This document shows, piece by piece, positions 2,334 to 46,291 of a DNA stretch of 64,000 nucleotides. Each line of letters starts with the position of its first letter. Positions within the stretch are counted from its first letter, which is position 1. The DNA lies in NCBI GenBank assembly GCA_020744425.1, contig JAGMUV010000005.1:434001-498000 (forward strand), written 5' to 3'. Source of the stretch: Dactylonectria macrodidyma. Taxonomy: Eukaryota > Ascomycota > Sordariomycetes > Hypocreales > Nectriaceae. The translations under genes were made by a program, and so were the position numbers. The notes under the pieces were generated by a model. It worked only from the letters and a program-made list of their open reading frames with translations, was not told where the DNA came from and searched no databases.

Positions 2334-2523
2334 GATCTCCGGCTGATCGCTAATCACCTTTGTCGCTTTCTGCTGGTTCTCCATCAAAGCATCCCAGAGT
2401 CTCTCGAAGGATTTTTTCTCCACGAATTCAACCCTTCTTACGGAAATCTCGTTATTTATCTTCTTTATAACTTTTGAAATACCTACCCGGTAGCCGCTTG
2501 GCGGAGATTCAGGCCTTTGGTGG
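2334..2523 (+). promoter_or_regulatory. LINE 5' untranslated leader, presumed internal promoter
   Basis: This 190-nt stretch lies between the 5' target-site copy and the ORF1 ATG. A full-length LINE must carry its promoter inside the transcribed region, so this leader is where it should be. No specific motif is identifiable by eye. That the leader is full length is inferred from the intact ORF1 and the clean target-site junction. Confidence 0.4.
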
Positions 2524-6800: not shown

Positions 6801-7606
6801 AGCTGAACCTATACATCGCCGAGCTGGGAGCTATAGAGATGGTATTGAGATGTATGCCGTCTGGACTCTGCCGGCGGGATATGACTGTCATGACGAGCAG
6901 CCGCTCCGCACTAGAAGCCATACGGCGGCCACGACAACAATCCGGCCAACAAATCATACGGCAAATATACGACCATATCAAGCGTCTCGAAGACGAGGGC
7001 CACTCTCTCCGGATGTTGTGGGTTCCAGCAGGAGAAGAGGATTTCGCGCTGGGACCAAAAGCCAAAGCAGCAGCGCGGAAGGCCACAGAAGGAGAATGCA
7101 GACCAGATGTGCCACCGCATCTAGCAAGATCCACAAGGATAAGACTAGCGATAACCAAGCAGCAGCAAACAAGAACACTACCAGAAAGAGTCGGGAAATA
7201 CTCGAAGCAGATAGATACGGCACTGCCAGGCAAGCATACCCGTACTCTATATGACTCGCTGAAGAGGAAGGAAGCAGACGTACTATCACAGCTCCGCACC
7301 GGAATGGTGAGACTTAACAGCTTTCTGTGCAAGATAGGAACGATGGAATCGGACACTTGCGAATGCGGGCTAGCATCAGAGACAGTGGAACACTTCCTAT
7401 TCCGCTGCGCAAAATGGACCGCGCAACGGGAAGGCATGTTGCGATGTTCACAGACGAAGATGGGAAACCTATCATACTTCCTGGGAGGAAAGGCGGCGTC
7501 TGACGGTGACAAATGGGCGCCAGACATGCGGGCAGTACGGGCGACGATCAAATTTGCCATTGCAACGGGGAGGCTTGACATGGACCAGAAGCCTCAGGCA
7601 CACTAA
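3827..7606 (+). CDS. LINE ORF2: endonuclease, reverse transcriptase, degenerate RNase H
   Basis: 1259 residues from the ATG at 3827. The frame is open further upstream, but that part overlaps ORF1 and lacks family similarity. Domains in order: exonuclease-endonuclease-phosphatase fold (VIQLNVRK at the N-terminus, AVQEPP, AGDFN near residue 150, GSDHRAI near 230); reverse transcriptase with WRPISLLSTLGKILE, ISFDVKGAYN, GLPQGSPLSPVLF and the catalytic FVDD near residue 681; an RNase H-like region near 940-1070 that seems to lack some catalytic acids; and a C-terminal CECG...HFLFRC finger near 1178. It nicks target DNA and copies the element RNA in place. No internal stop or frameshift is present. 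Confidence 0.92.
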   Translation: MSRIFQVIQLNVRKQDTVHESLMNDTRPQDFAVVAVQEPPAWKSDGKLLTVPMGHPRWIKMVPTIWRDGRWPIRSMLWVNRDLEVNQVPIQSPDLTAAAIRLPDRIMLVVSVYVPGRKPQALRNTCHTLHQVILDLRSRAGMAVDVILAGDFNQHDRLWGGDDVALARQGEAEPIIDLMNEHGLCSLLPRGTKTWQGPDKESTIDLVLATAEVADEMVTCSIHPTEHGSDHRAIQTTFDLARPDRIVTERLLFKNAPWTAIRAKVEDNLQELPWTVGVQEQTDQLMRVILEAIHELTPRAQPVPYAKRWWTKDLTRLRRVYTFWRNQARAQRRAGQVRPDLEGRAKEASKEYHDAIRKQKKLHWDEFLAEDVNIWKAAKYLKPGKDIMDDRVPPLKRQDGSTTVDRVEQAEELFSTFFPPLPARIEDEGDRPQRTEVHMPDLTMEEVEEKVIAAKPWKAPGEDGLPAMVWKQLWPVVRYRVLHLFDTSLRDGVVPHQWRSAKIIPLKKADKGDYTVAKAWRPISLLSTLGKILEAVVAERISYVVESYGLLPANHFGARKRRSAEQALILLQEQIYKAWRAGRVLSLISFDVKGAYNGVFKERLLERLKARGIPGGLVRWIDAFCSGRMATVVVNGHTSQLRELPQAGLPQGSPLSPVLFLFFNADLVQRRINARGGSMAFVDDYSAWVVGPTAEENRAGIQSIIDEALGWERRSGATFNGDKTAIVHFTRNAARTSDKPFMIKGKVVKPKTSAKILGVVMDAKLRYKEHIAKAAAKGLSAAMCLKRLKMLSPRTARQLFVATVAPTMDYASSVWAHSCGIREAAWLDKAQMVGAQAITGAFRTVATAVAEAEASIQPVQERHAQAATRFWINLRTLPRTHPLATLKVKVCRRFVSPMQRIAQVQGETATERMEIIREYALPPWRDRIPVLCDPDRERAVEEAKRVDGIVMATCSSQRRGMVGMGGVVQDTAINNDDEVVASYSITLGLTEELNLYIAELGAIEMVLRCMPSGLCRRDMTVMTSSRSALEAIRRPRQQSGQQIIRQIYDHIKRLEDEGHSLRMLWVPAGEEDFALGPKAKAAARKATEGECRPDVPPHLARSTRIRLAITKQQQTRTLPERVGKYSKQIDTALPGKHTRTLYDSLKRKEADVLSQLRTGMVRLNSFLCKIGTMESDTCECGLASETVEHFLFRCAKWTAQREGMLRCSQTKMGNLSYFLGGKAASDGDKWAPDMRAVRATIKFAIATGRLDMDQKPQAH

Positions 7607-13587: not shown

Positions 13588-15547
13588 CTACCACCGATCG
13601 TAATCCGGAATGTCTTCTTGGAAGTACGTTTCAGTGACCTTGGAAAAGCCAACTGTCGGCGCATTATATGGCCATGGCTCTCCATCTCCCGTGCCGAACA
13701 AAGCTAAGGATGCACCAGTGAAGATACCATAGCCCACTGGTCCGAACGCTTGCCAGAAAGACGAGATGTTTGTCGGATAGGTTGGTGCGTCCTTTCCAAA
13801 GCTGTACCCGAGCTGATACAAAAGAGGCGTACATCGTACATGAAGCGTCATGGTCCGACGTGGAAAGTCGGACTTCGGAAGCGGGGTTTGCCAATACTGA
13901 CCGGTTAGTAAATCATAAACGATAGGCTTTGATGGTCGCTTACCGTTGTGGTTTTGTTTTTGAAGGACTCCGTGTAAATACACATTCCAGTCTGGTTGAC
14001 ACAACCGCGGATGCCAATGTCTTGGTGCTGCCATTCTGAAAGGTATGCTGAGATTCCCACCTTATTCCTTGGTCCGAGATTCCCGCTGAAACCCAAGACC
14101 TCGGCAGAGAATGTCATGTTGAGGGATGTCTGCTTGCGCAGCAACGCTGCTGGTGTATCTCTGTCACTCAACCCAAACACATTCGGCCTCAAAATGAGGC
14201 CCTTTTGTGTCGTGTCGTAGTTCTTTGTGTACGGGGTTCGTAACTGGTACCAAGCGTCATCCCAGTTTGAGCCCTTGAATTTCTCAACCCATTTTTTGGG
14301 TACTTTCTTGGGCCCAGACTTGGGTTCGACTTCCTCGCTCAATAAAATCGGCTTCCCGTTGTTGAAGACGGGCCACCCATCTCGCCACACAACATTGGTC
14401 AGGAATGTCTCTCGTCCTTGGTTGCGTTAGTCCTGTGGAGTGTCATAGATATCATGGGTAATTGGAGAAGGATTGGCTAGCTTAAAGTCTTACCTAGAGG
14501 TGATTTTTCGTTGATATTTCGACGTGCAAGGAAGGATGCGTACCAGTCTCCGTTCGCCGTCTTCATCATAGTCGCATGACCAGTTGACTGCACCGTCAAA
14601 TTATCAAATCCCCATTGCCCATTATACATCAGCGGATTGGCCGGGTTAGCAGTAAATGGCCCACTTGGGGATTTGCTTCTAGCGATGGTGGAGCGGTGAA
14701 GATTGTCCGTACCACCTCCATATTGTTAGCGCAATGAAATAGCCTTGTAGCGTGTGCGTGTTTACCTTCGGCAATCAGGAGATAATACCAGCTATCCTTG
14801 TAATACATCTTTGGACCTTCTGGTCTGGCAGTAGAATTGCTTGGCAACGTTCCGTTCCAAAGGCTAACGTATGGGCCGGTACATTGACCAGAAGAGAGAG
14901 ACACTTCGCATTGCGAGATACCCCACACCCGGTCAATGTTATTGTTCGGTGCCATCAGATTCAAGTACGTCTTCTTCGTTTTCGGATCTTGAAACAATTC
15001 AGGGTCGATCCCCCAAGGCTCAGCCCAGATAGGATCAGACCAAGTGATGAGATCTTTGGATGAGAAAAAGAGCACTCGCGGCCAAACCCTTGACACTGGA
15101 TCATATGTCCATCTTGTCATAGTCGAAAGCCAATACTTTCCATTGATGTAGGCCAAGCTTGGCGCCCAACCTCCTTTAAAATCAATTAGAATCATTCGAA
15201 ATATTGCCTGGAGAGTTTTGTACTTGCCAGCGGCCGTTGGAGTCCCAAAAAGTTGCAGCTGTTCTGGTCGAGTCAAAGCGTGGGAGAATAGCGTCCAATT
15301 GGACAGATCCTTGCCTATGGGTTTAAGTCAGCATCCATCCAAGTTATTAGGACAAACACCAATTACTATGGTAAATTGGAATGCCGGGCCAGTATTCAAA
15401 CGAAGACGTTGCAATGTAGTAATCATCTCCCACTGCAAGGATAGCCGGATCCGGGTTCCATCCCGAAATGATGGGGTTCCAAATGCCCCACGCCGAAGAG
15501 GAGAAGAGCAGAATGCAGCCCCAAATTACACCCCGTAGCGGTGCCAT
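13588..15547 (-). CDS. Secreted GH43 glycoside hydrolase (beta-xylosidase / arabinofuranosidase)
   Basis: Six exons: 15547-15367, 15314-15228, 15173-14766, 14715-14494, 14416-13944, 13896-13588; 559 residues. The N-terminus MAPLRGVIWGCILLFSSSAWG is a signal peptide. The five-bladed propeller domain carries the three GH43 acids: NPDPAI (general base), GIDPELF (pKa modulator) and ARPEGPKMY (general acid). A C-terminal beta-sandwich domain, about residues 350-559 (WDDAWYQLRTPY onward), is the kind found on fungal GH43 xylosidases. Several NxS/T sites are present. It probably trims xylose or arabinose from hemicellulose outside the cell. Intron 2 (15227-15174) has a GC rather than GT donor (GCAAGT). 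It neighbours the alpha-xylosidase gene. Confidence 0.9.
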
Positions 15548-16725
15548 TATGAGACTAAAAAGCGGAACGAAGTCAACGTAGGATCACGGTAGAAGTGTAG
15601 GATTGCCTCATTGGCTTCTGGGGTAATGGATGACTGGTTGCGTTTCGAATGTGCGGATCTAGTGTAAATATAATTCTATGCAAGACATCGGAGGGATGCT
15701 CCGGAAGTTGTCCCGGGCTGGATTGATCGATTCAGCGCTGGACGTCTTTACCGTGCTTCTTTAATCGCACTAATCACACTTGATCTCAACTCGACAAAAC
15801 GATCCACTAACGTACCAGTTCATTCCGGCAAAAACCCCATTCCCAGGATACAAACAGGCAGTTGACTCTAGCGCGAATACCCCGCCAATTCTACTCCTTG
15901 CAAAACTGGGGCTAGGCTCCGGCAATCGGGGGAGCCACCGGACCTTATCCCTGGATTTTGTATAGACTGAAAAACGCTCTCTCCTGACGTATGGATGGCT
16001 TGACGTAATTAGTCGCTAGTGGAACTTGAGGTACCGGTGCAGCTCCGTCACGTGACCGCAGGCAATACCTACCTCACGCCCTCGATCCCTACACAGGAGA
16101 GCCTGGGAGGATCATCATCACAGACTACACATAGGAACCCTTTGCTTCACAAGTTTCCTAGGTCTAGATCAATCACTTTGCTTCTCACTCTTCTCGCTTC
16201 CCTTTGTTCGTGATACCTCCCAAGCTCACAGCCCGCCTTGACGGCTCGGTCTCGCTCAAACGCCGTACCAGTCCAGATTTCAATTCCGCAGAACCGCACC
16301 GTCAAAACCCTAAAATATGCAATTTTTTAGTGATTTCTTTCCCTATTTGCGACTTTAAACGTGTGGCCCAAAGCATTATAATTTTGTTGTGTTGTCACAA
16401 AGTGGCTGTTCCAGGGCGGTCATGATCTCGCGATATTGTTTTCGTTTCACATAAAGATCGCGATTTACGTCCTAGGCCCATATACTAATTCTACTACCTC
16501 CTCTCGCTGTTGCCCGCTACTTGCTTCAAAGGGTCGAATAGCAAATTCCTTCCGTATGCAGTTTTAGTTACCTCTGATGGCAACGAGAGGTGAAGTAAGA
16601 GAGTTCATTGCGTTGTATGGACAATGTGAAGTGCAATAGGAATATCGTCACAGTTAACAGGGGTTAAGAAGCTCTGTATGGATAGAGACTTGGAGACTAA
16701 ATCCAAGTTTCATACGAGAACCTAC
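15548..16725. promoter_or_regulatory. GH43 upstream region with one GGCTAG / CTGGGG overlap
   Basis: About 1.2 kb between the GH43 start and the end of the GH31 gene. At 15906-15915 the bases CTGGGGCTAG contain a CTGGGG (CreA-type SYGGRG) overlapping a GGCTAG (XlnR-type GGCTAR). One overlap of such short motifs may be chance. No other gene seen. Confidence 0.3.
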
Positions 16726-19301
16726 TTAAGCCAGTGGAATCTCAACTTCCCGCTCAGAAGGGCCAAGGGTGCCAACAGTGCCCTCAACGAGTTGCACTTT
16801 GATGTCAGACCTAGGTTCACCATCTAGGACCGAGATCTTTGCGCACTGTTCTTCAACCTTAACTGAGATCCTCATTTGCACTTCACCAATATTCTGGTGA
16901 TCTGGGATTTCCACTACCGCATCCATATTTTCAGCTGGGTTAACAACAACTGTAATTCCCTCAGCCCAGTCATACGTTACCTGGTCCTTTGACAGATCCT
17001 GGTTCCCCAGGACCACAGCCTTACCCGGTCTCACCAGGACTGGCAAGCTGAAAAAGTCGTGTTGTTCTGTTATGTAGCCAGGTCCTTGTCTTATCTTGCC
17101 GTCAAGAAGCCCGTACCACTTGCCTTTTGGAACGTAGTAAGTCACATCGCCCTCTTCATTGAACACTGGCGCTACTAGCAAGGAGTCGCCGAGGAAATAT
17201 TGCGTGTCGAGATGCCACGCCATTGGATCGTCGGGGAACTCCACGAACGAGCTACGTAGCATCGGGATTCCAGAGTGGTGGGTCACAAGGGCTTGCGCGT
17301 AAAGATACGGCATCAACCTATGTTTCCACGAGGAGAAGTGGGCCAGGACTCGTGAAGCCTCTTCTGAGGGGTCGATCAACCAGGGAACTCGGAACGATCC
17401 GCTTCCGTGAAGTCGAGAGTGTGATGAGAAGAGGCCGAAGGCAATCCAACGCTTGAAAAGCGCCGCGTCTGGATTTCCTTCGAATCCTCCAATGTCGTGT
17501 GCCCAGTAGCCGAATCCGCTGAGTGCCAACGAGAGGCCACCTCGCAATGTCTCGGCCATGGCAGGGAAAGTAGAGTATGGGTCACTGCCCCAATGCACTG
17601 GAAATCGCTGCATCTTGTTAGTGTTTGTGCCACTCTCTTTAGCTTCGAAACATACCTGACAGCCAGCAGCAGCGGATCGGGCGAACAGCACAGCGTTGTT
17701 CTTGCCCAGTGACTTCTCAAGCGCCTCAAAGGTTACCTTGTTGTATAGGAACGCGTAGTAGTTGTGCATCTTCTGAGGATCTGACCCGTCGAAGTAGACT
17801 GTATCACCTGTCGGAATGCGCTCTCCAAAGTCCGTCTTGAACGATTCTACACCCATGTCTACCAATGCTTGGAGCTTAGACTGATACCATTTGCAGGCAT
17901 CGGGATTTGTGAAATCGACAATTGCCATGCCGGCTTGCTGTGAAAGTTGCATGGTCAGCTACCCGGAAGATGACATACGGGGAGAGAATTGAGCAGAATT
18001 ACCCAGAAACATACTGCCAAACACTCCCATCGCCACGCTTGATGAAGTAGCCCTTCTCCGCACCTTCATCAAATAGTTTGCTTTCTTGCGCGATATAGGG
18101 GTTAATCCAAACGCATACCTAATGAAGGATGAGCCGAGGCCGTTATAAAACTTTCAGATGCCGCTTACATGCTGGGCCCTCTCCCTCAATCGCTTCAGCT
18201 GTCCGACGGCATCAGGGAAGAATTCTTGATCAAATTCAAAGTCGCACCATTGGAAACCCTTCATCCAGAAGCAATCGTAATGAAACACCGAGACTGGGAT
18301 GTTTCTGTCCTTCATCCCATCTAGAAAGTTGTTGACTGTGGTCTCATCGTAGTAGGTAGTGAAGCTGGTCGTGAGCCAGAGACCAAAGCTCCACGCGGGG
18401 GGTAGCGCGGGTCGCCCGGTAATGTGTCCGTACTTTTCTAGAATCTCTTTTGGGCTTGGACCGTAGATGAGATAGATGGAGAGTGATTCGCCAGGCACAG
18501 CGATATTAACTCGCGTTGTCCGCTCAGACTGAACTTCCAGCGATGCAAGGTTGGACGTGGGGATAAAGACGCCATAGCCGGCAGAGCTGATGAAGAATGG
18601 TATGTTTTTGTAAGTGAGCTCAGAGCCAGTCCCTCCATCATCGTTCCATAAGTCGATGGACTGACCATTCTTGACAAAAGGACCAAACCGTTCGCCGAGG
18701 CCGTAGATCATTTCACCGACGCCAATGGACAGTTGGTACGTTGTCCATCGCCCCCCCTTGCCTGGATTGATGTAATTGGCTTTGGGATGAAAAGCGGTCG
18801 TGTTTTGCTGGATGTAACCGATGGAACGCCAACCGAGCGAAGTCAACTTTCGTGAGCCGGAACTGAAGTCGAGCTCAAAGCTCTTGGGTGCTGTGTTGAC
18901 CGACGCTTCAAGATTCCCAACGGAGAAATTCAATCTGTCAGCAGTCTTGGATGTGTTGATTGACTGTGTGTGGCTCGGCTTCCCGGCAGGAAACAGCTCA
19001 AATTGAGGCCCCGCGGTCACACTCTTCTGTGCCTTCCAATGGGTCGATGAGAGAAATACCACATCGTCCATCGGCGAGCTAACATGGTGCGTTAAGGTAG
19101 GGTTGTTGAGAGTATCCCCGCGGTGGTTGATTGGTTTTGAGCACTGTGGAATGTCAAATTGATACTCATCTGAGGATACACACCGCTTACTGTGACAAAG
19201 TGAAGGTGGTCACTTTTCGCTTCGCCCTTGACAACTTCAATGGCCCAGTCGATTATTGTGTCCGGCGCCGGATGCCAGCAGCCGTGTGAAAACTTGACCA
19301 T
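16726..19301 (-). CDS. GH31 alpha-xylosidase, YicI type
   Basis: Five exons: 19301-19191, 19143-18169, 18118-about 18011, about 17937-17656, 17607-16726; about 785 residues, close to the bacterial alpha-xylosidase length. The N-terminus MVKFSHGCWHPAPDT has no signal peptide, so it is probably cytosolic. Landmarks: HRGDTLNNPTLT, IYGLGERFGPFVKNGQSIDLWNDDGG, VWINPYIAQ, the nucleophile motif FKTDFGERIP, the acid motif WAHDIGGFEGNPD, and SSHSRLHGS. It should release xylose from alpha-xylosyl oligosaccharides such as those of xyloglucan. The junction of exons 3 and 4 is uncertain: the simplest in-frame splice gives VWQY-QAGMAIVDF, a few residues shorter than relatives. XlnR-type motifs lie upstream. 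Confidence 0.88.
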
Positions 19302-19985
19302 TGGTTTGGGCTCTCAAGTCTGCGTTTGGTTACTTGCGGTAAGAAAAGCTATTCAGGTCGTGACTATACTGCCAACCCAGAGGCGCTTGATGTTCCGTTA
19401 TCGCTTGCCTATCTCCTGTGAAGCCAAGAACTCTCTCTAGTTTGAGGCTATTTGCATGACATGTGGAACCTTGGTGGGGATGCTGATCCTACACGAGGTC
19501 TGCGTTAGTTGGCGAAATTGTACGAGCGTGATGCGTGAGAGTTGGGTCGAAGGACAAATGAAAGCGGGCTCGTATAGACAAACCCCGTTATTATTGGCCG
19601 GTATCCTTTTCTCCAGTGGGGTAAATGCGAAGGCTTAGTGAGCTTCAAGGACAACCTCCAGGGTTAAGGACCCCCAACCCTCCAAAACCCGGTCATGACC
19701 TCATATTCAAAGCACCTGACAAAGACAAGAGGTGTTGCGGAGAAGGTAAGCTACCCCAAATCTCGGACGGGCTGGGATGAATAGGCTAAATGCAAAATCG
19801 AAACGACTTGTCTTGTTCACCGGCATATTCGGGTCCGTCGCAAAGAGGATATTTACAACCCCCCACGCGGCTGGTCAGCTGGGCGTGCCAATCAGTGAAT
19901 GGATGTGTTATTTAGCCTGAGTAAGTTGTCCCCAATGCACCAGCGGAGACTCCGCAACCTTAGGGAACCCTGTCGATGGGATGGC
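19302..19985. promoter_or_regulatory. Upstream region of alpha-xylosidase with GGCTAA motifs
   Basis: GGCTAAA at 19784-19790 on the plus strand and TTTAGCC (GGCTAAA on minus) at 19911-19917, about 480 and 610 bp before the alpha-xylosidase ATG. GGCTAR is the known binding core of the xylanolytic activator XlnR/XYR1. No gene seen in this stretch. Confidence 0.4.
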
Positions 19986-20290
19986 TACGGAGGACCATTT
20001 CAAAAGTCTTTGCCTGTACGCAAGCCACATTTTGCTTTCTCTTTATTAAAAGAACATTAGGTAACTTACATCTTACACATCTTAGCACTAAAATATGCCC
20101 TATATTATAGCACACTTAGCCCACAAGCTAGCCATAATATGGGTCTAACAGTACTAAACTGTAATAAATTTAGTTAGCAGATATTAGCCTAAAACGATAT
20201 AAGGCTAAATGGATTGTCAAGTACCTATCAAAGGTTCGAGGGTGCGGCGTCCTTAGCGTGGGCAAAAGACTTTTGAAATGGTCCTCCGTA
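19986..20290. mobile_element. MITE-like element with about 28-bp inverted repeats and TA flanks
   Basis: The left end at 19988 begins CGGAGGACCATTTC and continues to GCC at 20014. The right end, read in reverse complement from 20288, begins with the same bases and matches for about 27 positions with one extra A. Both ends are flanked by TA (19986-19987 and 20289-20290), the target duplication of Tc1/mariner-type elements. The roughly 250-bp interior is AT-rich and non-coding. It holds four GGCTAR-type motifs (20116, 20128, 20184, 20203). It has no transposase, so it would depend on one elsewhere. Confidence 0.75.
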
Positions 20291-20368
20291 ATTTCTCGGG
20301 GAATGTAACGGCATTCATTTGGATGGACTGTTAGACGAGACCTCGAATTAACATATACTTCTAAACAG

Positions 20369-21800
20369 TTACGGCATTGATTCCGGCGTGATCACCACTG
20401 TAATTGCTCAAGAACATTTTAGAGAGTATTTCGATCCATTCACCACAAGCATCAAGGGCGCACTGGTTAGCACTTTCAACGCTGGCGCCGTTTTTGGAGT
20501 ATTCTTCTCGCTGGATGGAGCGCTGACGCTCTCGGTCGGAAGAGGACGATTGCGATAGCTGCCATCACTGCTCTGGTCACTGGTATCATTCAAGCCGCTT
20601 TTATCAACAGGTATGCTTATTGCCGGGAGAATCGTGGGTGGCTTTGCCGTCGGCATGATGAACATGACGATCCCCATCTACAACTCTGAGATTGCTCCGC
20701 CCGGGAAACGCGGCATGATTGCAGGTCTGCACGCACAGTTCGTCGATTTTGGCCTTGCAGCTGCGAATGTAAGTGACATCTTATTTTCAAGGGATTTTGC
20801 GAGTTGACTAGATATAGTGGGTTGGGTTTGGCTGCTCCTACGCCTCTGGCCAGTTTCAGTGGCGCTTTCCTCTTGCGTTCCAGTGTCTCCCTGCAATTGT
20901 TGTCCTCATCGGAATCTACATCCTGCCCTATTCACCTCGTTGGCTATTGGAAAAGATTGCGACGACGAGGCACTCGCGGTTATCAAACGACTGCATGGCA
21001 ACATTGGGCATGACGGCAGTTTCTTCCCCGCAGAGACAACCAAATGAGAGAGCAGATTCGGTTTGAGAAAGCCGTCAGTAATGCTGGATGGCGGGAGGTG
21101 TTCAAGACACCTGGCAACCGGAAGAGAGTTTTGCTTGCTGTTTTTGTGCAGGTATTCACGCAATTGAGCGGCATCAACGTCGTCACTTACTTTCAGACAG
21201 ACATGTACAAGAGCCTGGGCATGACTGGTCACATGCCGACACTACTTGCTGGGTATATGCATGTCATCTTAAGTGACTGACTAGATTAATGAGGCTAACA
21301 TGTTCTCAAATAGTATCTATGGCCTTGTAGGCCCGCTTTCCAATATCATTTGTCTCTACTATGTTGACACATGGGGTCGTCGAAAGACGCTATGGATCAC
21401 TGGCCTGATTATGTCCATGGATATGGGCCTCGTCATGGGCTTGTCAGGTGGGTACGGCTCATCAGACAACATGATCGCCAAGAGTTTCACGATTGCGTTA
21501 ATTTTTTGTTTTATTGCCATGTGATGCTTCCTTCACAAACAACACGATACACTTCTCCATTAATAACGGCATCTCTTAACTACTCACTGAGCTACAATTC
21601 GATCCACTACATCTACGTTCTAGAAATTATGACAATGGCTGGGCGAGCCAAGGTAAGTTCTAGATACACCACATGGGATAAAACTAGCTGATAGTGGACA
21701 AAGGCTCTGCCATTTCAGTTGTCTCTAGCGTCCTAATTAACGTCGTCTTCAACCAAGTGTCACCCATTGCGTTTAAAGATGTTGGGTACAAGTACTCCTT
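20369..21800 (+). pseudogene. Sugar-porter MFS transporter, frameshifted and split
   Basis: Translated in pieces, this is a sugar porter: YGIDSGVITTVIAQEHF, then WSADALGRKRTIAIAAI, GMLIAGRIVGGFAVGMMN, APPGKRGMIAGLHAQF, an intron with GTAAGT donor at 20769, WVGFGCSYASG, LPYSPRWLLEK, and VFTQLSGINVVTYFQTDM. At least four frameshifts break it: near 20515 (before WSAD), near 20610 (before GMLIAG), near 20955 (after WLLEK) and near 21045 (before EREQIRF). The first exon is not recognisable, and homology stops near DVGYKY at about 21800 before the last membrane segment. A fitting C-terminal piece lies at 25917-26117 on the same strand. I give no repaired sequence. Confidence 0.85.
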
Positions 21801-21851
21801 GTCTCTTACAGGATCTCGGGTCTACTCCACTGCTAAAATCAGTAACTATGC

Positions 21852-23638
21852 TCAATTATCACAAGTCAGGTAACCCACATCCTCACTGATAGTGCGGTCG
21901 GAGTCGTTGGCGCTGGGCTGCTGCTGTTGCTGAGACTGGGGCTCAGGCTCAGACTCGTCCTCGGCGTCCTCGGCATTCTCGGCATTCTCGGCAATCTCGG
22001 CGTTCTGGGCCTATGCATTATCAGATCGCAGTCGCAGCAGTTCGGCCGCCTGTGAGAGACTTACATCGATCTCAATCCTGGCAGCCTTTACACAGCATGC
22101 GGTGTTAGTCATGTTTCAAAGACTGTATCGAACATGTACGCACTTGAACAAATTGGTGGAGCGCCTGCAGGATCTGTGTATTAGCGTATGCGCTTCAATG
22201 AAACCAGATACCGAGACAAAAAAAAAGAGACAGAACTCACGCCAACTTCAGCATTAAGCCGCTGTTATTTCACAATAGTCAGTACAGTCGATCTCAAGGA
22301 GATGGTTGTGGGTGGGTCATGTACTTACTGCGTTGAGGATGGTCAGGGCCTGGAGTATTAGGTTTGTTAGCATTGAGCCCTGAACTTTTTCGAAGAGCTT
22401 CATTGGCGTCTCTTACCCGCACGACTCGGCCACCTTTCTGCAACGCTCGTTAGCATATACTCTGTCACGGTGTCCCGCTTCTGGGGGTTTCATGACCTAC
22501 CCGGAGCTGCGTTTCTTTTTTCTGAAGTGACCTTCGTAAGTATGCAGTCACTTGATGATGGGATTGGCTTAGGACTTACGGAAATCTGAGCTTCGGCTTT
22601 CTTAAACGATGTTAGTTCTTATCGAGATCAAATTGCGGAAATTTGGAGTGTGACCTACCGAGATCTCCCTGTCCCACCACTGTGGATGTGAACACATGCG
22701 TTAGCAGTCCGCTCCCCGTGAGTTCGGATCGTCAGAGGTGAGAAGCGTGACTTACTTCACCGGAGTAGCGCTGAACATAATAAGGTTAGTATAACGGCTC
22801 CTTGGCGTAGCGAGGGTGTTTTACTTACTTTCACATATGGGCCGCGGGCCCGAGGAGCAGCTTGCGGCGGTGGCTTCAAATATGTGTCAATGGAGTTCCT
22901 GAGCCACGGCTAACCCCTCTCATAGAACTTACAGATGTGGCGGCGGCGGGTGGGCTGGCGGCGGTGGCGGGAGACTTCATCTATATATCAGCACGACTCC
23001 TGGCAACACGATCAGGGCCTCTCCGGGGACTCACGGTGGCCTCGGCGGCAGCATCGGAGGTGGCAGCAACGGGAGCCGCATCAATCGCCACCTATTTCAT
23101 CAAGTCAGTGATTCAGATGATGATCAAAGCGTTCCAGGGACTTACATCGGCCAGCAAGGAGAGAGAGTCCATCTTAGCCTCCCGCCAGTAGGGTTAGCAA
23201 GAGAGGCACTCCTCAATGCCACCACCGAGTCACCTGTTGATATGACTAGGGCGGTGCTGGAGAGACTCACGTCGTGAGATTGTAAGAAACTAAAAGGAAG
23301 AAATGCTATGTCAGTCTTGACTGAGGCGGAAAGTATCTCGGAATGATACTCACAAGTGTCTTGGTTCGACTACAGCAGAAGCCATGATGGCTTGGTCAGT
23401 TTCCTGGCGCCAACATCAAAGTGAGAGACACGTACACGTTGTTGAAGTCTGCATGAAGTTAGTTCTCTCATCATTTGATTTGCACGTTGATGGGGATATC
23501 CAGAGCTTGGTTTCGTACCTTGAGTGCTGGGGCTGGTGGCGATGGCGATGGCGATGGCGATGGCGATGGCGGTGGTGATGAGTGACGAAAAGAATTCAAG
23601 GCCAGAATCTTTGTCGAGACCCGCTTCGTCGCTTCCAT
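21852..23638 (-). CDS. 18-exon gene with eight consecutive 21-nt heptad exons
   Basis: Exons (minus): 23638-23519, 23448-23436, 23369-23354, 23289-23271, 23178-23146, 23091-23035, 22980-22933, 22873-22829, 22770-22756, then 22679-22659, 22600-22580, 22521-22501, 22437-22417, 22349-22329, 22261-22241, 22164-22144, 22085-22065, and 22010-21852. Total 693 nt, 230 residues; introns 54-92 nt with GTAAGT, GTGAGT, GTAGGT or similar donors and mostly CTAAC-like branch points. Residues 1-122 are Ala/Pro/Ser-rich with a PSPSPSPS tract. Exons 10-17 encode one heptad each (WWDREIS, KAEAQIS, KKETQLR, KGGRVVR, ALTILNA, RLNAEVG, ALHQFVQ, AARIEID), then an acidic, Gln-rich tail. An in-frame stop lies just before the ATG. 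No signal peptide or known domain; function unknown, coiled-coil interaction likely. Confidence 0.85.
23539..23571 (-). repeat. Hexanucleotide repeat coding for the Pro-Ser tract
   Basis: About five copies of GCGATG on the plus strand (CATCGC on minus) inside exon 1 of the 21-nt-exon gene, encoding alternating Pro-Ser. Slippage here would add or remove Pro-Ser pairs without a frameshift. Confidence 0.75.
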
Positions 23639-24106
23639 TGCCAGCTATTGCTGATACTCAACAGCAGGTGCGTCGCCCAGCACGCTCCTGCCTTACCCAG
23701 CACGTACCTGCCTCATCCCACTCTCGAAAGACCTCACCTAATGGAATGAACGAATCACGCCTACCTCACTTTAGGTGCCGACAGATTTGCTAATATGCAT
23801 TGATTGGGAAGGACGCACATGAACACTGGAGCTCAACGCTCCAGCGCCAAGAGCCCAAGAGTTGTGTACGGACGGGATGTTTGATGAAGGAATGCACGTG
23901 ACTGGTGATAAAGAGTTGAACATGGTCTATAACGATCGCTATAACCGGAGCTAGAGGCCTTTTTCCATCAGATTGTTGGTTTGAAGTCTGCAGGCCATCA
24001 TGCTGCCCACTCGTTCAACTTTCCTACCATTGCCTGCAATCTGAGAGCCTAGGTGGCAACACTCCCTCCCAGCGGAACCAAGCATCCGCTACTACTGATT
24101 CACCTT
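23639..24106. other. Upstream region of the heptad-exon gene
   Basis: About 470 bp between this minus-strand gene and the 3' end of the 2EXR gene. It should carry the promoter. I see no gene or clear motif. Confidence 0.5.
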
Positions 24107-25249
24107 TCAGCCTGTTCCATCAGTGTCAGGCAACTGGCGTAACACCCTGAAAAAGTATTCTTGGCCCAAGGGCAGACCAGCTGCTTTACGAAACACTCCA
24201 TCCCGTGCCGTCATAAACCACCGATTCGTCATCCACATGAAAGCGAGGACCGGCACATGACTTCTGGTACCCATGTAGCGAAATCCTATAGTTTCGCTAT
24301 CCCAATTGTAGCCATATTTTGTAGGTTGGCCATCCCACATGTAGCTTTCGACGTATTTGTCCTTCCCGTCGATAAAGATGTGATGATTCTCGGGCTCGCA
24401 AAGGACCTCATCGTAATGAGAGAAATATCGCTGGTCTAACCCCCCCGAAACTTTATAGTTGGCCGGTAATCGCCCGCCTCTGTCAATGAGCCACATACGA
24501 GCCCGTCTGGGGATCAAACCCCTCTTCCAGGCCCAGTAAGCCCGCAAAGCCAAGCCTCTGGGCGAACCTTCTCTGACACACTTTAGAAATGGTTCAATCG
24601 TTGTGCCCATTATGCCCTCAACCCAGCTTTCATCAAACTCTAAGGCAAGATTGATATTAGGCGTTTGTGGAAGGTGGAAGAATGGAAGGCGAGAAAGGAG
24701 GACATCCCATCGGAATGAGGCACATTTAGCCATGTCTTCAGGAGCGAAGCGGAAGCACACGATATCGCGAATAGAGATCACCCTGAGGTAGATATGCTGT
24801 CCTTGATGGTGCGCCGTGATCATGTCGCTGTGCTTCGGAGATGGCCGTTTGGGGGCTTTGTCAAGATGCTGGAGGAGAGCCGCGCGGGACTCCTTGCACG
24901 CATTTAGGAGTCCAGCATCCCAGAGGTAGAGGAAACGGTTGGCTTCGGTCCAAGAACATTGGGACGGTTGAGATTGCAGCTGGGAAGGTGTCCACCAATT
25001 TCCATTGAGCGTACGTGCATTCGGCTGGCTGGGCTTTGGGGGATAAGTGCGCAGCATCTGTTGCAGGGAACTCTGTCGACTCCCTTTCTCATCAGTATTA
25101 AAGAGCGAGTAGTAATGGATTCTCGGCGTCTCGTCGGTGCATATGGCCATCTGCCAGATCTTCCAGCGTAGCTCAGCTGGTAACTTATAGAAGGCAAGAA
25201 AATGAATCGGCGCCTCGAGCGCGTCCACTTCGTGGGTGTCAGAGGTCAT
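24107..25249 (-). CDS. 2EXR-family protein of unknown function
   Basis: 380 residues in one exon from the ATG at 25249. The N-terminus has IHFLAFYKLPAELRWKIWQMA, the hallmark of the fungal 2EXR family (hydrophobic-x-LP-x-ELR-x-x-IW). Further family-like parts are LNACKESRAALL in the middle and several Trp/Tyr-rich segments toward the C-terminus. This family is large and expanded in filamentous fungi; its biochemical role is not established. There is no signal peptide and no membrane segment. The gene lies with the heptad-exon gene between the two pieces of the broken sugar transporter. Confidence 0.75.
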   Translation of the reverse strand: MTSDTHEVDALEAPIHFLAFYKLPAELRWKIWQMAICTDETPRIHYYSLFNTDEKGSRQSSLQQMLRTYPPKPSQPNARTLNGNWWTPSQLQSQPSQCSWTEANRFLYLWDAGLLNACKESRAALLQHLDKAPKRPSPKHSDMITAHHQGQHIYLRVISIRDIVCFRFAPEDMAKCASFRWDVLLSRLPFFHLPQTPNINLALEFDESWVEGIMGTTIEPFLKCVREGSPRGLALRAYWAWKRGLIPRRARMWLIDRGGRLPANYKVSGGLDQRYFSHYDEVLCEPENHHIFIDGKDKYVESYMWDGQPTKYGYNWDSETIGFRYMGTRSHVPVLAFMWMTNRWFMTARDGVFRKAAGLPLGQEYFFRVLRQLPDTDGTG

Positions 25250-25916
25250 CTCTTTTTGTTCTTGTTGTTATCTTCTGTCGATGCTGGGTGTGGTATACTC
25301 AGTGTTCGATGTTGGGAAGGGCGAGTGGGCACAGAAGGATCTGTAAAAGTTAGCTGGCGTTGTGTGATGGAGGGAAGAGAATCAGCGCCCAGCTCCTGGG
25401 GCCGACCAGCAAGTAATATATTCATCAAGATTTAAGCTTCCCAGCTCGCATGAGCTAGAAAAGCTTGATCTTAGGCAACTATGAAAGCATTGGGTTTAAA
25501 AAATGCTTAAAATGTGAAGAAAACTGTTTTTTTGACTTCGTGATAGCAGCAACTCGCCCTTGATGGAGCGGACAGCTAACTTAGAAGTAAAAGTTAGCTG
25601 GTCTATTTATTAGAGTCAAACGATTGGCCATGTGACTTAGCAGTCCTTGTTGAATTTTAGGATTTGATAATAGACTTTGAAGTTGGTTGGTCTGCGGTGA
25701 CATCATATCTGTATATCAAGTATGATGAATATGAGGGTGGCTTGGGAAGATGGATCATGGTGACTTGATCCCCTTTTTTGAGAGATGGAGAGAGAACCCG
25801 GATGGCCCTTTTTTTTTTATTTTTTTTTTACTTAGAGACCGGCATGATCCCGAAATATACCTAGAAATTAATATAGCGATTATCCGGTGATGCAGCGAAT
25901 CCGGGCCAAAGGACTC
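25250..25916. other. AT-rich intergenic DNA
   Basis: Promoter side of the 2EXR gene. AT-rich with poly-T runs near 25808-25830. No gene seen. Confidence 0.5.
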
Positions 25917-26117
25917 CGATCAAAATTTAAGTATTTTATATTCGCTTTTCAACTGTACAAACTTGGTGGGTGCCATCGTCGTCTTTTTCATGTTCCCGGA
26001 AACAAAGGCAAGACAATAGAGGAGATTGGAAAGATATTTGGCAACGAAGTCATTGTTGCGGACCTGGATAAGGTCAAAGAGGAGGTGGAGGTGGAGGTGG
26101 AGAAAGCAGCATGCTAG
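25917..26117 (+). pseudogene. C-terminal remnant of a sugar transporter
   Basis: Read across frames, this encodes KYFIFAF, then VGAIVVFFMFPET, then KGKTIEEIGKIFGNEV and a charged Glu/Val-rich tail to a stop at 26115-26117. FPETKGKT..EE is the conserved end of the last membrane helix in sugar porters. Two frameshifts break it, near 25962 and 26005. It starts close to where the pseudogene at 20369-21800 stops, on the same strand, so both may come from one gene. No repaired sequence is given. Confidence 0.75.
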
Positions 26118-27130
<1,013 letters not shown>

Positions 27131-28936
27131 TCACTGGGCAGACTCGGCACAGCTGTCACTTTGAGCAAGCTTTTCGGACTTGTTGTTTCCAACATGAACA
27201 TAGTACGCCTCGTCACGCTCTTTGCGTGTAATGTATCCCGGAGGAGTCCATTTCGCGCTATTCCATGCCTTCAAGTCTGGATGACTGTACATTTGGTCGA
27301 TGTTTTCGAGACTCAAAGTGCGGGTCTCGTAGAGGAAAAACCAAGTGATGAGGGCAGCGATGAAGTTCATGCCAGCAAACACATAGCCAAAAGCGTACGA
27401 GATGCCGTCGTCAGCGAAAGGAGTGAGAAAACTGATGAGGACTATCAAATTGTTAGTACCGAGAATTCAGACCCCATTCGAGAACTTACAGTTTCCAAGC
27501 CAATTGCTCGCAGTTGCAAGAGACGCCTGCTTGGCACGAGTTCGAAGGGGGAAAAGCTCTCCAACAACAACCCACCCGAGGGGACCCCAGCTCATCGCAA
27601 AGGATGCAATGAACAAGCAAGCTGAGACAATCATCACCACACCGACAGCTCGACTCTCCTCCGGATCGATGGCAGTGCCCACTGAAGCAAAGACAACAAG
27701 CCAGATAGTCTGCCATAGAGCGCCGAGAAACAGAGGCCAACGGCGGCCTACCCTTTCTGTCACATAGATTCCGGGGAAAGTCATGGCCACGTTGACCGCA
27801 CCTAGAATGAGCTGGACCATGATGGGGTCGTCGATGCCAGCAGATTGAAAGATGGTTGCCCCGTAGTACTATGAATCGTTAGCGATGTCATTTAAATGAG
27901 AAATGGGGGATCTTACAAAGAAATAATTAACTCCTGTCCACTGCTGCAAGAACTGAACAGCCATTCCGAGTAGGGTGCGGTAGACAAGCTTTGGGATGTT
28001 GTTGTTTGGGATGAGACACTCGGCCCAGGTGCCTTCACCCGCTTTATGTTCTTCATCGATCAATGTCTTCATCTCCTGCATGTCCCTTTCCAGGATGGCG
28101 TTGCTTAAGTCGTGTTTCTTTCCGCGAAGTCGAGCAAAGGAAAGGCGAGCGCCATCCCAGTCATCTTGTCCTGCAAGCCATCTTGGAGATTCGGGAACAA
28201 CCAGAATACCAAGACCAAGGGGGAGAGAGAATGCCATCTCCAAGCCAATGATCACACGCCACGAGGCATCAGAGTCTTGAATCTCTCGGACGCCATAATT
28301 GACGATGTTGGAGATGAGGATGCCTAGACTGATCATAAGCTGGTAGGATGCAACAACGGCGCCCCTAATCTCTCTCGGTGACGTTTCGCTTTGGAATACA
28401 GCAACACCAACGGAGAGACTACCAACGCCGAGTCCAGCAATGATGCGACCTATGGTCATGTGAACCCATGACTCCATGGCTGTGATTTGGATGGTGTTTC
28501 CAATGACGAAAATGACAACGGCAAGCGTCATGCTCTTCCGACGGCCGAGCCAATCCGATGTACTGAATATAATTAGCAACAAACGCAATCAAAGGAACAG
28601 CAGAGGGAAACTTACTATGATGATGACAGAGCGCCGACCAGACATCCCAAACTCATGAGAGAGACTAGGAGCGACTTGATGCTGGATCTCCAGTAAATAG
28701 TACCGTCATCATGTTCCTGGCCAAATCGTTTCATGAAGTCTTCAAAGAGCAGCATCCCTGAGATCTGGCCGGTATCGTAACCGAAGAGAAAACCCCCGAT
28801 GGAGGTGATGACGGCCAATAGCAGCGCCTCTGCGCCACAGTCGGCACCGTTCACCTTGATGGAGCTGTTATGGGTTAACGTTGCAAACACTTTACTCCAG
28901 GAGTAAGAATGAGGAGACTCACTATTTCCCGAGCAT
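27131..28936 (-). CDS. Hexose-type sugar transporter (MFS sugar porter)
   Basis: Five exons: 28936-28923, 28864-28616, 28562-27917, 27868-27490, 27441-27131; 532 residues. The long upstream frame begins only at a GTG; a 14-nt first exon (MLGK plus two bases) with a GTGAGT donor joins to SIKVNGADCGAEALLLAV, a typical start for this family. Motifs: GGFLFGYDTGQISG in helix 1, DWLGRRKSM, GRIIAGLGVG, VPESPRWLAGQ, QQWTGVNYFFYYG, and a C-terminal FLYETRTLSLENIDQMY corresponding to the PETKG region. It should import hexoses or pentoses at the plasma membrane by proton symport. It lies next to swollenin. This copy is intact, unlike the pseudogene upstream. Confidence 0.9.
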
Positions 28937-30824
28937 ATTCGCAGGAGTTAACTCAATAAGAGAGTTTAATTGAGGAGTTTAAGCGAAGATGCAATAGAGT
29001 GAAGAACTTCCCCCTTTGAAGAGGAGACTTGCTCTCTTTAACTGCTCAAAGACACCGCCAAACCAGCGGAGGCAATTGATATTGAATCACAGGCATTATC
29101 GCACAGGTGACCTTTGTTGCGTGTTCATTAGAAACAACGCAGTAGTGTAAGTCCCACAACCGCGGGTCGGAAGCATTGCGGCGATCCAGTATACAGGGAG
29201 CGGCTAAATGGTTAAGTGTAGTTCCTCCTTTTTATCCGCTGTACTCAACGGTCATTGCTAGCCAGCATTTGATTATCCTTGATTCAGGTAATTGTTGATG
29301 GAGCACGCATGGACCTGAAAACGCGAATACTGCCGAGCACACCGAGACGCTGAACCCTGTGCGGAGTGGACCGTTGCTGACGCCGTGGGATGATCTAAAT
29401 AGAATCATGTCATAGTGGATCTTATGCCAGCATCAACACTGGGGCTTCGACACGACAACGCTGAGGGCATGTAGCATTCCGCCTTCCGGCCGGCGCTCTC
29501 CCATAAATTGCCCCGTTTGATTTGGGCCGATTGCGAAAAATGGGGGCGGATTCGGACCGTCTTAAGGAAGACAGCATTGACTACGGCAGTCATCCGGTTG
29601 ATCCGGAGATCGATCGGTGAATATATAGACGCTAAATGCTCCTGTTATTCTTGTTTTGAAAGTTAATGATATGCTTCTGCTTCTAAGCAGAGAACGGATA
29701 GATATCTGAACGAGTGTATGAAGGTAGGGAAGGGGGCAAAGAGTAATAGACGTGGGTGGACAATGGGATGAGCAATCAGCCCCACCTCCTTTGATTGAGA
29801 TGCAGACATAAGGAACCTGTGCAGACATAAAAAAGAGGATTAAATGCATTCGCCCACCCGATTTTCCTTCATCCCATTGAATAGCACACTTGGTGGTGGC
29901 AGTCATACAGATTCTGGGGTTTCTTTTCGCTAATTAATGACAAAAGCACCTCTGGACACATTTGAGTGGTATGATTACTTGTAATTCTGGTTTTAATATT
30001 CAGCCCTGCTTTTAATTTACTCTCGTTGCCGGAGTGACCGTCACCAGAGAGTTGTCAGAGTCCATCTGCGTCGCATCAAGTCGCGGCAAATCGTAGGTCT
30101 ACTATGCACATTGGATAACTGTTCTCTGACGCTCTGCGAATTTGGGAAACAGTCTCCGAACCTTTGATACCATCGGTAGGAGCCGGAAAAAGACGGAAGT
30201 CATAGAGCCTCAAAGTAGCAATAGGCCTTCGATGGCGCTAATAGTTTCAGGGGTATTAGTTCTACTGTTAAGCACAACTACAACTGACAGAGGAGGATCT
30301 CTTATTCATTTAGTTCTACAGCTGCCATGTAGTGGCTCCAGGAGAAACCGGCTCAGCGAAAAAGGCTTATTCAAATCTTAGTGCTAATGGCAATGCAATC
30401 TCTTGAACCCCCTACGATGATCGTCCATCAAGCAAAATAGATTCTCGTTATTTACTCACAAGTCTTCAATCCTCTTCAATTGAAGATACATTCATAAATT
30501 TCACAAGGTGAAACATGATAGGCAGCGAAAGAGATTCCAAGTACAAATGACTCCTACACCTGCGAGCTATCCTAAGGAACAGTGAGCTTAGTAGTTTTCG
30601 TAGATACTCAGCCGCCACATTCCCAACCAATCTGATGAGCAACATGGACAGTCGTCTCGAGGTCGTCAATCCAAGCCCAAAATAGACCAGGATTCTTCAG
30701 AAACATGCGTCTAGCTAACATTGCGCGGTTCTGCTAATTCGGTCTCACGGCCCTAGGGCTTCGGTGTTGTAGTTATGTGAGTGTCTCCTTGCGATAGCAA
30801 ATTGGTAGCCGTACAGTCAATATA
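28937..30824. other. 1.9-kb stretch without a supported gene
   Basis: Between the transporter start and the swollenin 3' end. Only short open frames without motifs or consistent splice partners. It should hold the transporter promoter near 28937-29500. No tRNA or repeat recognised. Confidence 0.5.
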
Positions 30825-32571
30825 TCAAACGTTAGTAAACTGTGCACCGAAATCGATGTAATAAAAGCCCGCAGGGGAGCTGGCCGGGGCTGTAAAGCTT
30901 TTGATTGCAGCATTGTTGACGATCTGTTGCCCGGTCGGGCTGGTTAACCGCATCGCAATGGGGACATTGAATGGCCCAGTCCCGCTCGGCACTGTCCAGG
31001 AGCCATATCTCTCCTGCGGTCGGCTAGAAGTGTAGTTGGGATCATGGACGAGAGCGACCCATTGATCGGAGCCCGCAGCCTTGATCTCAATTTTGGTGAC
31101 GCTGCCGGGTCCGTTCGTGTTTACCGCCGTGAGTGCGAAGTAATATGGTCCGCCACCGTCACGCAGCCAGAGATACACGTTGCCCGGCTTGGGACAAGGC
31201 ACCCGTTTATAGCGTGTCGGAATCACGCCTGCAGTGAGGCTGCCTTTACCCTGTAGCCGACCCATGGCAATGTCGGAGAGGTCTAGGTGGATGCTGTCAG
31301 ACGGTAGAGGGCACCCGTACTTGAAATCAATTTCGCCGCAATGATCAGCGCCAGGGCCGCCTAGGGGTTTTCCCTTCTTGTTAGACCCGCAGATAGATAT
31401 AAAGGGGACATAAAACGAGCATACTCACAGCACCACTTGGAGTTAGCACTACAGGGGCAGCTGTCGACGACTTCGAGAACAATAGGATCTGTGTATCCAG
31501 TCTCGCCAACTGCATAATCGGTACCGTCCGCTTTTGTGCGGACTAGTTCGAAGCATTCGCCACAGGACAGATAGTTGTCCCTGTCACCGACCAAAGAGGA
31601 CCAGAACTACTCCTGTTAGCTCTACATTAAGAAACTCCACTCTCAGAAATTACTGACTTGCGTGTAGTAGTCACCGTTCGGTGCAGCAAAGTTGCCTCGT
31701 AAGGTAGTGTTTGTGGGGTCTTGGCACAAGATGGGATATGCCGTGCAGAAGGCGTCACATGTGCTTCCCAGCATTGGATCTGTCCAGCTGGCCGTCGAGC
31801 TACCTTTTGTGCATAGCCCATACATGCCGAAGCCGCAGGCCCCGCCGCTTGTTAAGCCAAAATGGGTCGAACGCTGAAGGAAATTAGTATTGAGAAGCAC
31901 ATACAGCTAGAATCGATGCTCACGCTGTAGTGCCAGGCCTCATTGTTAGAAACGTGGTGAATCTCGTCGAACATAGCGCCAGATTTGCAGTCGGCAGATG
32001 GCGGCGTCACGCAAGAGCCAGTGCAGCTCGAACTACAGCTTTCGGACGTGTTTTGGTTAGAGCAGTAGCGAGGGCAGCATACATTGTCGACGAGGGTCCA
32101 TGAGCCGCATGTGCTATCAGCGACACTGGGATAAGCAGACTGTGAGTGCGCCGCGACCACTGCGGTGTCAGTAGTTGTATAAACTGATGAGGTAGATCCA
32201 GTGGCCACCGAGGTGGCTGTTGACTTGCTGGTAGTGCTCGTGCTAGGATTAGACTGAGAGGATCATCAGACAAGGTCCAGAGGTTGTAGGACCAGAGATA
32301 TCAACGTACTTCGGCACCAGGGATACACTGAGAGTAGTAGTCATTAGTGTAGACGCAACCCGAGCCCGATGCGCAACAAGTCGCCCCCGCCCAGCCTATT
32401 CCTCCGCACTGGGCCCTGTGGTATATTAGTCTTTTAATTTTGATAGCTGGCGAGAATCGATGTCTCTTACCAATCCGCTGCACATGACTGTTGCAACGAG
32501 GTATCAATGAGCCCAAGAAAGGCAATTGAGAGAACCAATGATATATGCATGAGGTTTTTCCTTCGAGGCAT
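30825..32571 (-). CDS. Swollenin: CBM1 plus expansin-like protein
   Basis: Six exons: 32571-32471, 32415-32310, 32253-31924, 31873-31658, 31606-31429, 31360-30825; 488 residues, close to the Trichoderma swollenin length. Order: signal sequence (MHISLVLSIAFLGLI, with the ATG at 32550 as an alternative start), a CBM1 cellulose-binding module (WAQCGGIGWAGATCC to YYSQC), a Ser/Thr-rich linker, a cysteine-rich segment, a double-psi beta-barrel domain (THFGLTSGGACGFG, YLSCGECFEL, DSCPCSANSKWCC, HCGEIDF), and an expansin C-terminal beta-sandwich (WLRDGGGPYYFALTAV onward). Swollenins loosen crystalline cellulose and hemicellulose without clear hydrolysis and act outside the cell. The gene is intact. 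Confidence 0.92.
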
Positions 32572-45890: not shown

Positions 45891-46291
45891 TCACCGACTA
45901 GCACAGTCGGCCCTGCCGAAGTCGGCGCCTGTCCCGTCTTGACAAATCCCAGCGCTGTCACAGAACCCGCCGAGCCCGTTGCAGGTCTCGCCGCCGTTTT
46001 GGCGGACACGGACGCGGTTTCGGCGGACAAAGACGTGGTTTCGGCGGGTACCAGCACATTCAGGAAGGCGGCCAAAGCTGGCGCCCGTGCCGTCCTGGTA
46101 GACGCCGGCGGAGTCACAGAAACCTTCGCCGTTAGCGCACGATTCTGGACGGCGCGTTAGCGATCAGTAAGGAGCAACGGAACAAAGGTGCATTAAGCCC
46201 TATGAACAAGCGAGGTGTAAGTATAAGACTTACGTCCCATAGTCCTGGTGGCCATGCAGAGGCCGAAGAATGTCAAGATGAACAACCGCAT
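45891..46291 (-). CDS. Small cysteine-rich secreted protein with duplicated module
   Basis: Two exons: 46291-46234 and 46144-45891, 103 residues. Donor GTAAGT; acceptor GCGCCGTCCAG after a CTAAC branch point. The N-terminus MRLFILTFFGLCMATRTMG is a signal peptide. The mature part contains a module twice: GEGFCDSAGVYQDGTGASFG, then GGFCDSAGICQDGTGADFG, each followed by a cysteine. Between them lies an Arg/Val/Asn-rich linker encoded by a small repeat (CGCCGAAACC units). In the first module one cysteine is replaced by tyrosine. The shape (short, secreted, Cys-rich, repeated) resembles candidate effectors or antimicrobial proteins, but I recognise no family. No long single ORF reveals this gene. 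Confidence 0.75.

Follow-up and report, generated by a model that had tools for sequence, protein, structure and literature searches.

The minus strand of the window (the whole stretch of 64,000 nucleotides analysed here) carries, between 22679 and 22065, eight consecutive stop-free predicted exons of 21 nt, each in phase 0 and bounded by consensus splice sites. This array of heptad-exons in Dactylonectria macrodidyma (Nectriaceae, Hypocreales) is unusual, and it is real. We consider it probable that the array belongs to a gene whose eight 21-nt phase-0 exons each encode one heptad in a single a/d register, and whose product, with two helices in the predicted structure, is likely a coiled-coil protein that binds a partner.

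The exon array and its splice signals

An earlier sequence-only reading had described eight exons of 21 nt from 22679 to 22065, all in phase 0, with good donors and with CTAAC, CTGAC or CTAAT branch points in most introns, and it had equated one exon with one heptad. All eight exons were located at these positions, and the phase was confirmed both in our own gene model and in the deposited model, which uses the same 16 splice sites. The donors of exons 1 to 8 (in order GTAGGT, GTAAGT, GTAGGT, GTAAGA, GTAAGT, GTGAGT, GTGCGT and GTAAGT) are all near consensus, a branch-point motif of the three types is present in seven of the eight introns that precede array exons (the intron before 22521 lacks it), and each exon does supply seven residues of one a/d register. 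Exon 7 has a second AG acceptor 9 nt upstream that would give a 30-nt exon (22173-22144, ILQALHQFVQ), also in phase 0; its use would add ILQ and displace the heptad register, and the deposited model takes the 21-nt form. The features of the locus are collected in Table 1.

Table 1. Features of the micro-exon gene and its upstream neighbour (positions within the window)
Feature	Position	Strand	Evidence
2EXR gene, upstream, probably separate	24107..25249	-	PF20150 in frame, homologues, spliced mapping
Uncertain 5' end	23271..23650	-	two models differ
Best-supported core: 15 exons, AKMDSLSLLAD to WSRPEIL + stop, 14 phase-0 introns	21806..23178	-	spliced mapping
Four symmetric phase-0 exons (33, 57, 42 and 45 nt in the deposited model), Ala/Pro-rich, low model confidence	22829..23178	-	deposited model, AlphaFold2
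15-nt phase-0 exon, RYSGE, directly preceding the array	22756..22770	-	both models
21-nt exon 1 of 8, WWDREIS	22659..22679	-	splice-site listing, own model, deposited model
21-nt exon 2 of 8, KAEAQIS	22580..22600	-	splice-site listing, own model, deposited model
21-nt exon 3 of 8, KKETQLR; end of first predicted helix	22501..22521	-	both models, AlphaFold2
21-nt exon 4 of 8, KGGRVVR; KGGRV is the predicted helix break	22417..22437	-	both models, AlphaFold2
21-nt exon 5 of 8, ALTILNA; Asn in core position	22329..22349	-	both models, register test
21-nt exon 6 of 8, RLNAEVG	22241..22261	-	splice-site listing, own model, deposited model
21-nt exon 7 of 8, ALHQFVQ	22144..22164	-	splice-site listing, own model, deposited model
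21-nt exon 8 of 8, AARIEID	22065..22085	-	splice-site listing, own model, deposited model
132-nt exon: second predicted helix for about two more heptads (AQNAEIA ENAENAE D), then acidic Gln-rich tail of low confidence	21879..22010	-	deposited model, AlphaFold2
Terminal exon: seven sense codons, WSRPEIL, and stop	21806..21829	-	deposited model

Gene models around the array

Our own model comprises 18 exons from 23638 to 21852, separated by 17 GT-AG introns of 54-98 nt, with an open frame of 228 codons. The eight heptads are also found, in order, in the C-terminal part of the deposited D. macrodidyma protein EDB81DRAFT_927963 (hypothetical, 593 residues), and exact spliced mapping of this protein to the window gave 20 exons, of which exons 11-18 are the eight 21-nt exons with identical sites. 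Between 23091 and 22065 the two models differ only at one tandem acceptor, and the number of consecutive phase-0 introns is 14 in our model (introns 4 to 17) and 15 in the deposited one. Introns around the array measure 54-76 nt, and those of both models together 49-146 nt, apart from a 440-nt intron discussed below.

At the 3' end, our first model extends the exon from 22010 to a stop at 21852, and reading through the 49-nt intron before the deposited terminal exon gives VGYLTCDN and a stop. At the 5' end, our model begins with an ATG at 23638. It contains a 16-nt exon (23369-23354) that is absent from the deposited model, where the first exon is also read in another frame. Within the first exon, at 23537-23580, a hexamer (plus-strand TGGCGA) is repeated 7.3 times; our model translates it as Pro-Ser repeats, the deposited model as Ala-Ile repeats. 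The D. macrodidyma assembly may be among the 41 genomes of a transcriptome-supported set, the available passages of that source never naming Dactylonectria. According to these passages, the annotation of the 41 genomes was made with transcriptome support (PMC8664821).

Chance expectation and coding signal

Runs of exons were scanned in the window and two 100-kb flanks (264 kb), with GTRNG[TAC] donors, [CTA]AG acceptors, introns of 44-110 nt and an open phase 0, no branch point being demanded. The longest run of 21-nt exons was the eight of the micro-exon gene; elsewhere the plus strand of the window reached 2, neither strand of either flank exceeded 2, and in one-strand Markov shuffles of the 264 kb (100 in all) the longest run was 1 in 61 cases and 2 in 39. 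The minus strand of the window has 16 single 21-nt exon sites that obey the same rules; half of them are the array exons. For eleven other exon lengths (9-18 and 24-42 nt, in steps of 3) no run exceeded 2 on either strand of the window or on the one strand scanned per flank. When a branch-point motif was required the run dropped to 5, because one intron lacks the motif; under this rule, nine of ten window shuffles reached 1 and the tenth 2. A scan for chains of small in-frame exons with branch points returned the micro-exon gene as the only chain of at least five on either strand of the 264 kb, seen in two pieces (10 + 5) because of the same intron; six one-strand shuffles contained seven chains of four and one of five. 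Of the 27 GTAAGT words in the window, seven lie on the minus strand between 22059 and 23145.

Codon use was trained on 3,407 codons from ten long frames in the window, and the log-odds are given without a significance test. They amount to +0.19 bits per codon in frame 0 of the eight exons against -0.19 and -0.43 in frames 1 and 2, and to +0.28 against -0.23 and -0.36 for the 14 exons from 23178 to 21879; the introns are negative in all frames.

Other features of the window were noted alongside. Two overlapping long open frames lie on the plus strand at 2494-7606; the second contains endonuclease and reverse transcriptase domains, and with these long uninterrupted frames the locus looks like a non-LTR retrotransposon. 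A TAA trinucleotide is repeated 64 times at 26380-26571, within the most GC-poor 2-kb block of the window, and a 21-base unit (CGCGGTTTCGGCGGACAAAGA) occurs in 2.7 copies at 45992-46047. Carbohydrate-related neighbours are found on the minus strand at 14632-31424, namely GH43, GH31 (two frames), a sugar transporter and an expansin C-terminal domain.

Heptad register and predicted structure

When the heptads are stacked, position 6 reads I, I, L, V, N, V, V, I and position 2 reads W, A, K, G, L, L, L, A. Compared with shuffles of the residues, the a/d register is significant over the 56 residues (p 0.00045; best of 7 registers, 20,000 shuffles) and coincides with the exon frame; with the next 19 residues included (75 in total) p becomes 0.00015. 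In a hydrophobic-moment scan the strongest angle was 164 degrees (53.0), and a coil-like angle of 104 degrees came second (51.1), the expectation for a coil being about 103. The a/d register proposed in the sequence-only reading is supported: position 6 forms a strong core, and the single Asn among the core sites was found as described, at position 6 of exon 5. It is weaker than proposed in that position 2 is a poor core in heptads 1-4 (W, A, K, G) and the angle of 164 degrees is the strongest.

Structure modelling, which the earlier reading had proposed, predicted a mostly helical array product. AlphaFold2 on EDB81DRAFT_927963 (best of five models) gave helices at residues 485-507 and 513-557. 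Exons 1-3 correspond to residues 487-507 and exon 4 to 508-514, and exon 8 ends at 542; therefore, the first helix stops at an exon end and the break (508-512) falls inside exon 4, while the second helix continues beyond exon 8 into the following exon. Because the predicted helix breaks at KGGRV, the array does not form one continuous coil of eight heptads, as uninterrupted stacking would have it; the model has two helices instead. By block, pLDDT is 58-89 over residues 481-560 and below 50 on either side, in a prediction whose alignment had 26 rows, the other 25 being gaps over the array apart from a few of their C-terminal residues, which align within exon 4. The whole model has a pLDDT of 61 and a pTM of 0.52, and the packing of the helices is therefore not to be read. 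A predicted helix is by itself no proof of a coil; the heptad periodicity keeps to one register, a continuous helix with a good a and d core throughout is not seen, and a coiled coil appears likely on the predicted model.

Search for relatives

A search with the spliced protein gave nothing at E <= 1 (7,975 candidates scored, probably many of them through low-complexity words), and the coil part, searched alone, had no hit at E <= 10 (87 candidates). Both covered proteins of 0.55-1.75 times 228 residues, a range that misses the deposited protein of 593 residues, and because of this restriction to similar lengths the absence of relatives counts for little. In the genome of D. macrodidyma itself, four weak matches were found outside the gene (best E 0.024, on contig C22, with query residues 21-70 that include a Pro-rich stretch), and none of the four loci has a chain of more than two small exons. 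A Pfam scan (E <= 1) returned two sub-threshold hits, the PSMD3 N-terminal TPR (E 0.006) and a GPS2-interacting domain (E 0.38); a bZIP transcription factor was considered and rejected, no bZIP being among these hits. Six weak matches were obtained from the PDB, the best being SUN2 (E 0.05), followed by lamin and others.

The sequence-only reading knew of no fungal gene family of this kind. Literature searches on fungal or heptad microexons showed, in titles and abstract openings, no fungal gene with such an array, which agrees with that statement; a second member was not found in the searches above, and the word family is therefore not used for the gene itself.

The upstream 2EXR gene and the deposited fusion

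When the upstream neighbour (380 residues) served as query, 26 proteins were found at E <= 1e-5, and the top match was EDB81DRAFT_927963, identical (100%) over 94% of the query. Dactylonectria estremocensis and Cylindrodendrum hubeiense also have homologues of the 2EXR protein. In the deposited model, a 440-nt intron whose donor, GTCTGC, is poor links the 2EXR gene to the micro-exon gene (23737-21806), and the C-terminus of the 2EXR protein is lost. A VLR motif is present in the last 40 residues of 20 of the 25 homologues, and the unspliced 2EXR frame of the window also has a VLR-type ending (FFRVLRQLPDTDGTG followed by a stop), which the fusion splices away. The 2EXR domain (PF20150) lies in the upstream frame and is joined to the coil in the deposited model through this fusion, which looks wrong. 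Judged by these sequences, the fusion in EDB81DRAFT_927963 is probably an annotation error, because it removes the C-terminal motif of 20 of the 25 homologues.

Origin of the equal exons and alternative explanations

The heptads resemble each other more than shuffled residues do (0 of 20,000 shuffles reached the observed value), and the resemblance persists when core and non-core residues are shuffled separately (p 0.0069). At the DNA level, exon identity is 28.4% against 25.1% after shuffling (p 0.04; p 0.077 with codon shuffles). The introns show no detectable likeness to one another (mean similarity 6.56, within the null range of 6.14-6.74 from 40 shuffled sets), and the DNA of the gene including its introns matched only itself among the best candidates in its own assembly (77.3 Mb, 77 contigs). 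A recent tandem duplication is not supported, the introns being no more alike than shuffles, and neither is an array of introner-like elements, since the introns are not near-identical and, among the best candidates, the gene DNA matched only itself. The equal exon length would most likely go back to duplication of a heptad-coding exon with its intron, by now eroded, and then to selection for the heptad; this is the weakest step of the proposed explanation. An origin by exon duplication is weakly suggested, because the similarity of the exon DNA is marginal and that of the introns at shuffle level. Possibly the duplication, if it happened, is old, or the likeness of the heptads reflects selection for the coil.

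The introns might instead have been gained singly, as mobile intron-like elements or otherwise, in an older uninterrupted coil sequence, with the 21-nt spacing marking tolerated sites. The short and uniform array introns (54-76 nt) and the faint sign of common descent in the exon DNA would fit such gains, but eight equal exons would hardly be expected from them, the symmetric exons just upstream ranging from 15 to 57 nt, and the introns, neither detectably similar to one another nor copied elsewhere in the genome among the best candidates, are unlike recent introner copies; we regard single gains as unlikely, though by no means far-fetched. That the locus is decayed or non-coding and its splice-like motifs are aligned by accident is hardly credible: neither a homologue nor a known domain was found, as this explanation would have it, but a run of eight stands against at most two in shuffles, frame 0 has the codon bias, the frame is open across 17 introns, and the deposited model has the same exons. 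The 593-residue model might also be right and the coil a C-terminal arm of the 2EXR protein. In our judgement a predictor without transcript evidence would perhaps seldom pick a 440-nt intron with a poor donor, which speaks for a genuine fusion; the VLR ending kept by 20 of 25 homologues and by the window's own frame, together with the stop of that frame, is removed by it, and we hold a genuine fusion to be very improbable.

The remaining alternative concerns what splicing does with the array, and would have cells include varying numbers of the 21-nt exons and thus make coils of varying length from one gene. Skipping any array exon keeps the frame and the heptad register (by arithmetic), every array exon being symmetric, and retention is never harmless in the 15-exon core, where 11 of the 14 introns would introduce an in-frame stop and 3 a frameshift. 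The tandem acceptor and the divergent 5' models also leave scope for alternative splicing. Against this, the deposited record examined has one isoform, the array donors are all near consensus, and exon skipping is uncommon in filamentous fungi, so that such regulated lengths seem improbable. To the broader proposal that splicing sets the length of the coil, the symmetric microexons acting as heptads to be put in or left out and giving graded lengths or partner specificities from one gene, we likewise attach little probability. For the gene with heptad exons in one register that we favour, the short introns (54-76 nt) would be excised singly by intron definition, and therefore no minimum exon size would be needed.

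An exon size that equals the structural repeat of the encoded protein is directly relevant to the long debate on whether exons correspond to protein modules. Its introns of 50-75 nt would make the fungus a handy system for studying how the spliceosome handles eight serial 21-nt exons and whether whole heptads are skipped. The case also illustrates that such a gene can hide within the deposited record of a hypothetical protein, here probably a false fusion.

Comparison with known systems

The predicted array has the architecture of a micro-exon gene, that is, many consecutive and very short, mostly symmetric exons. The micro-exon genes (MEGs) of Schistosoma mansoni are described in the available passages of PMC10526429 as having 10-20 very short exons, mostly multiples of three (6-81 bp, 15 bp being the commonest), introns of up to about 5 kb and proteins with a signal peptide. 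The run of very short, mostly symmetric exons is shared with D. macrodidyma; on that description the MEGs differ from the present gene, in which the introns measure 49-146 nt and the array exons are equal and matched to the heptad. By eye, no secretion signal is evident in the product of the D. macrodidyma gene. Aphid bicycle genes, according to the passages of PMC9168663, have about 17 exons, many of them small and in a single phase, the internal exons being almost all in phase 2, and genes with many similar-sized, single-phase exons are there called rare in most genomes. Numerous small exons that share one phase are thus common to both systems, whereas the bicycle genes, as described, use phase 2 and form families of putative insect effectors, and the fungal array uses phase 0, was found in one copy and encodes a predicted coil.

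Trichoderma belongs to the same order as D. macrodidyma. The closest fungal case found in the available sources is Xlr2 of Trichoderma virens, a single 20-nt microexon shown to matter in a filamentous fungus (PMC11121469). In those passages it is one microexon of a length not divisible by three that serves as a switch for a zinc-cluster factor, whereas the present array has eight symmetric microexons in a row. The SP7-like effectors of Rhizophagus are fungal proteins built of repeated modules, with a signal peptide, hydrophilic repeats and a conserved intron before the first repeat, as given in the passages of PMC11333574. They resemble the present gene in combining repeat modules with a conserved exon-intron feature, and are unlike it in their signal peptide and hydrophilic repeats, heptad-sized exons being unmentioned in the passages.

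In fibrillar collagen genes, exons of 54 bases are kept in frame and their length is tied to the Gly-X-Y repeat of the triple helix. That structure is a triple helix and not a heptad coil, but exon length is tied to a structural repeat of the protein there as it is here.
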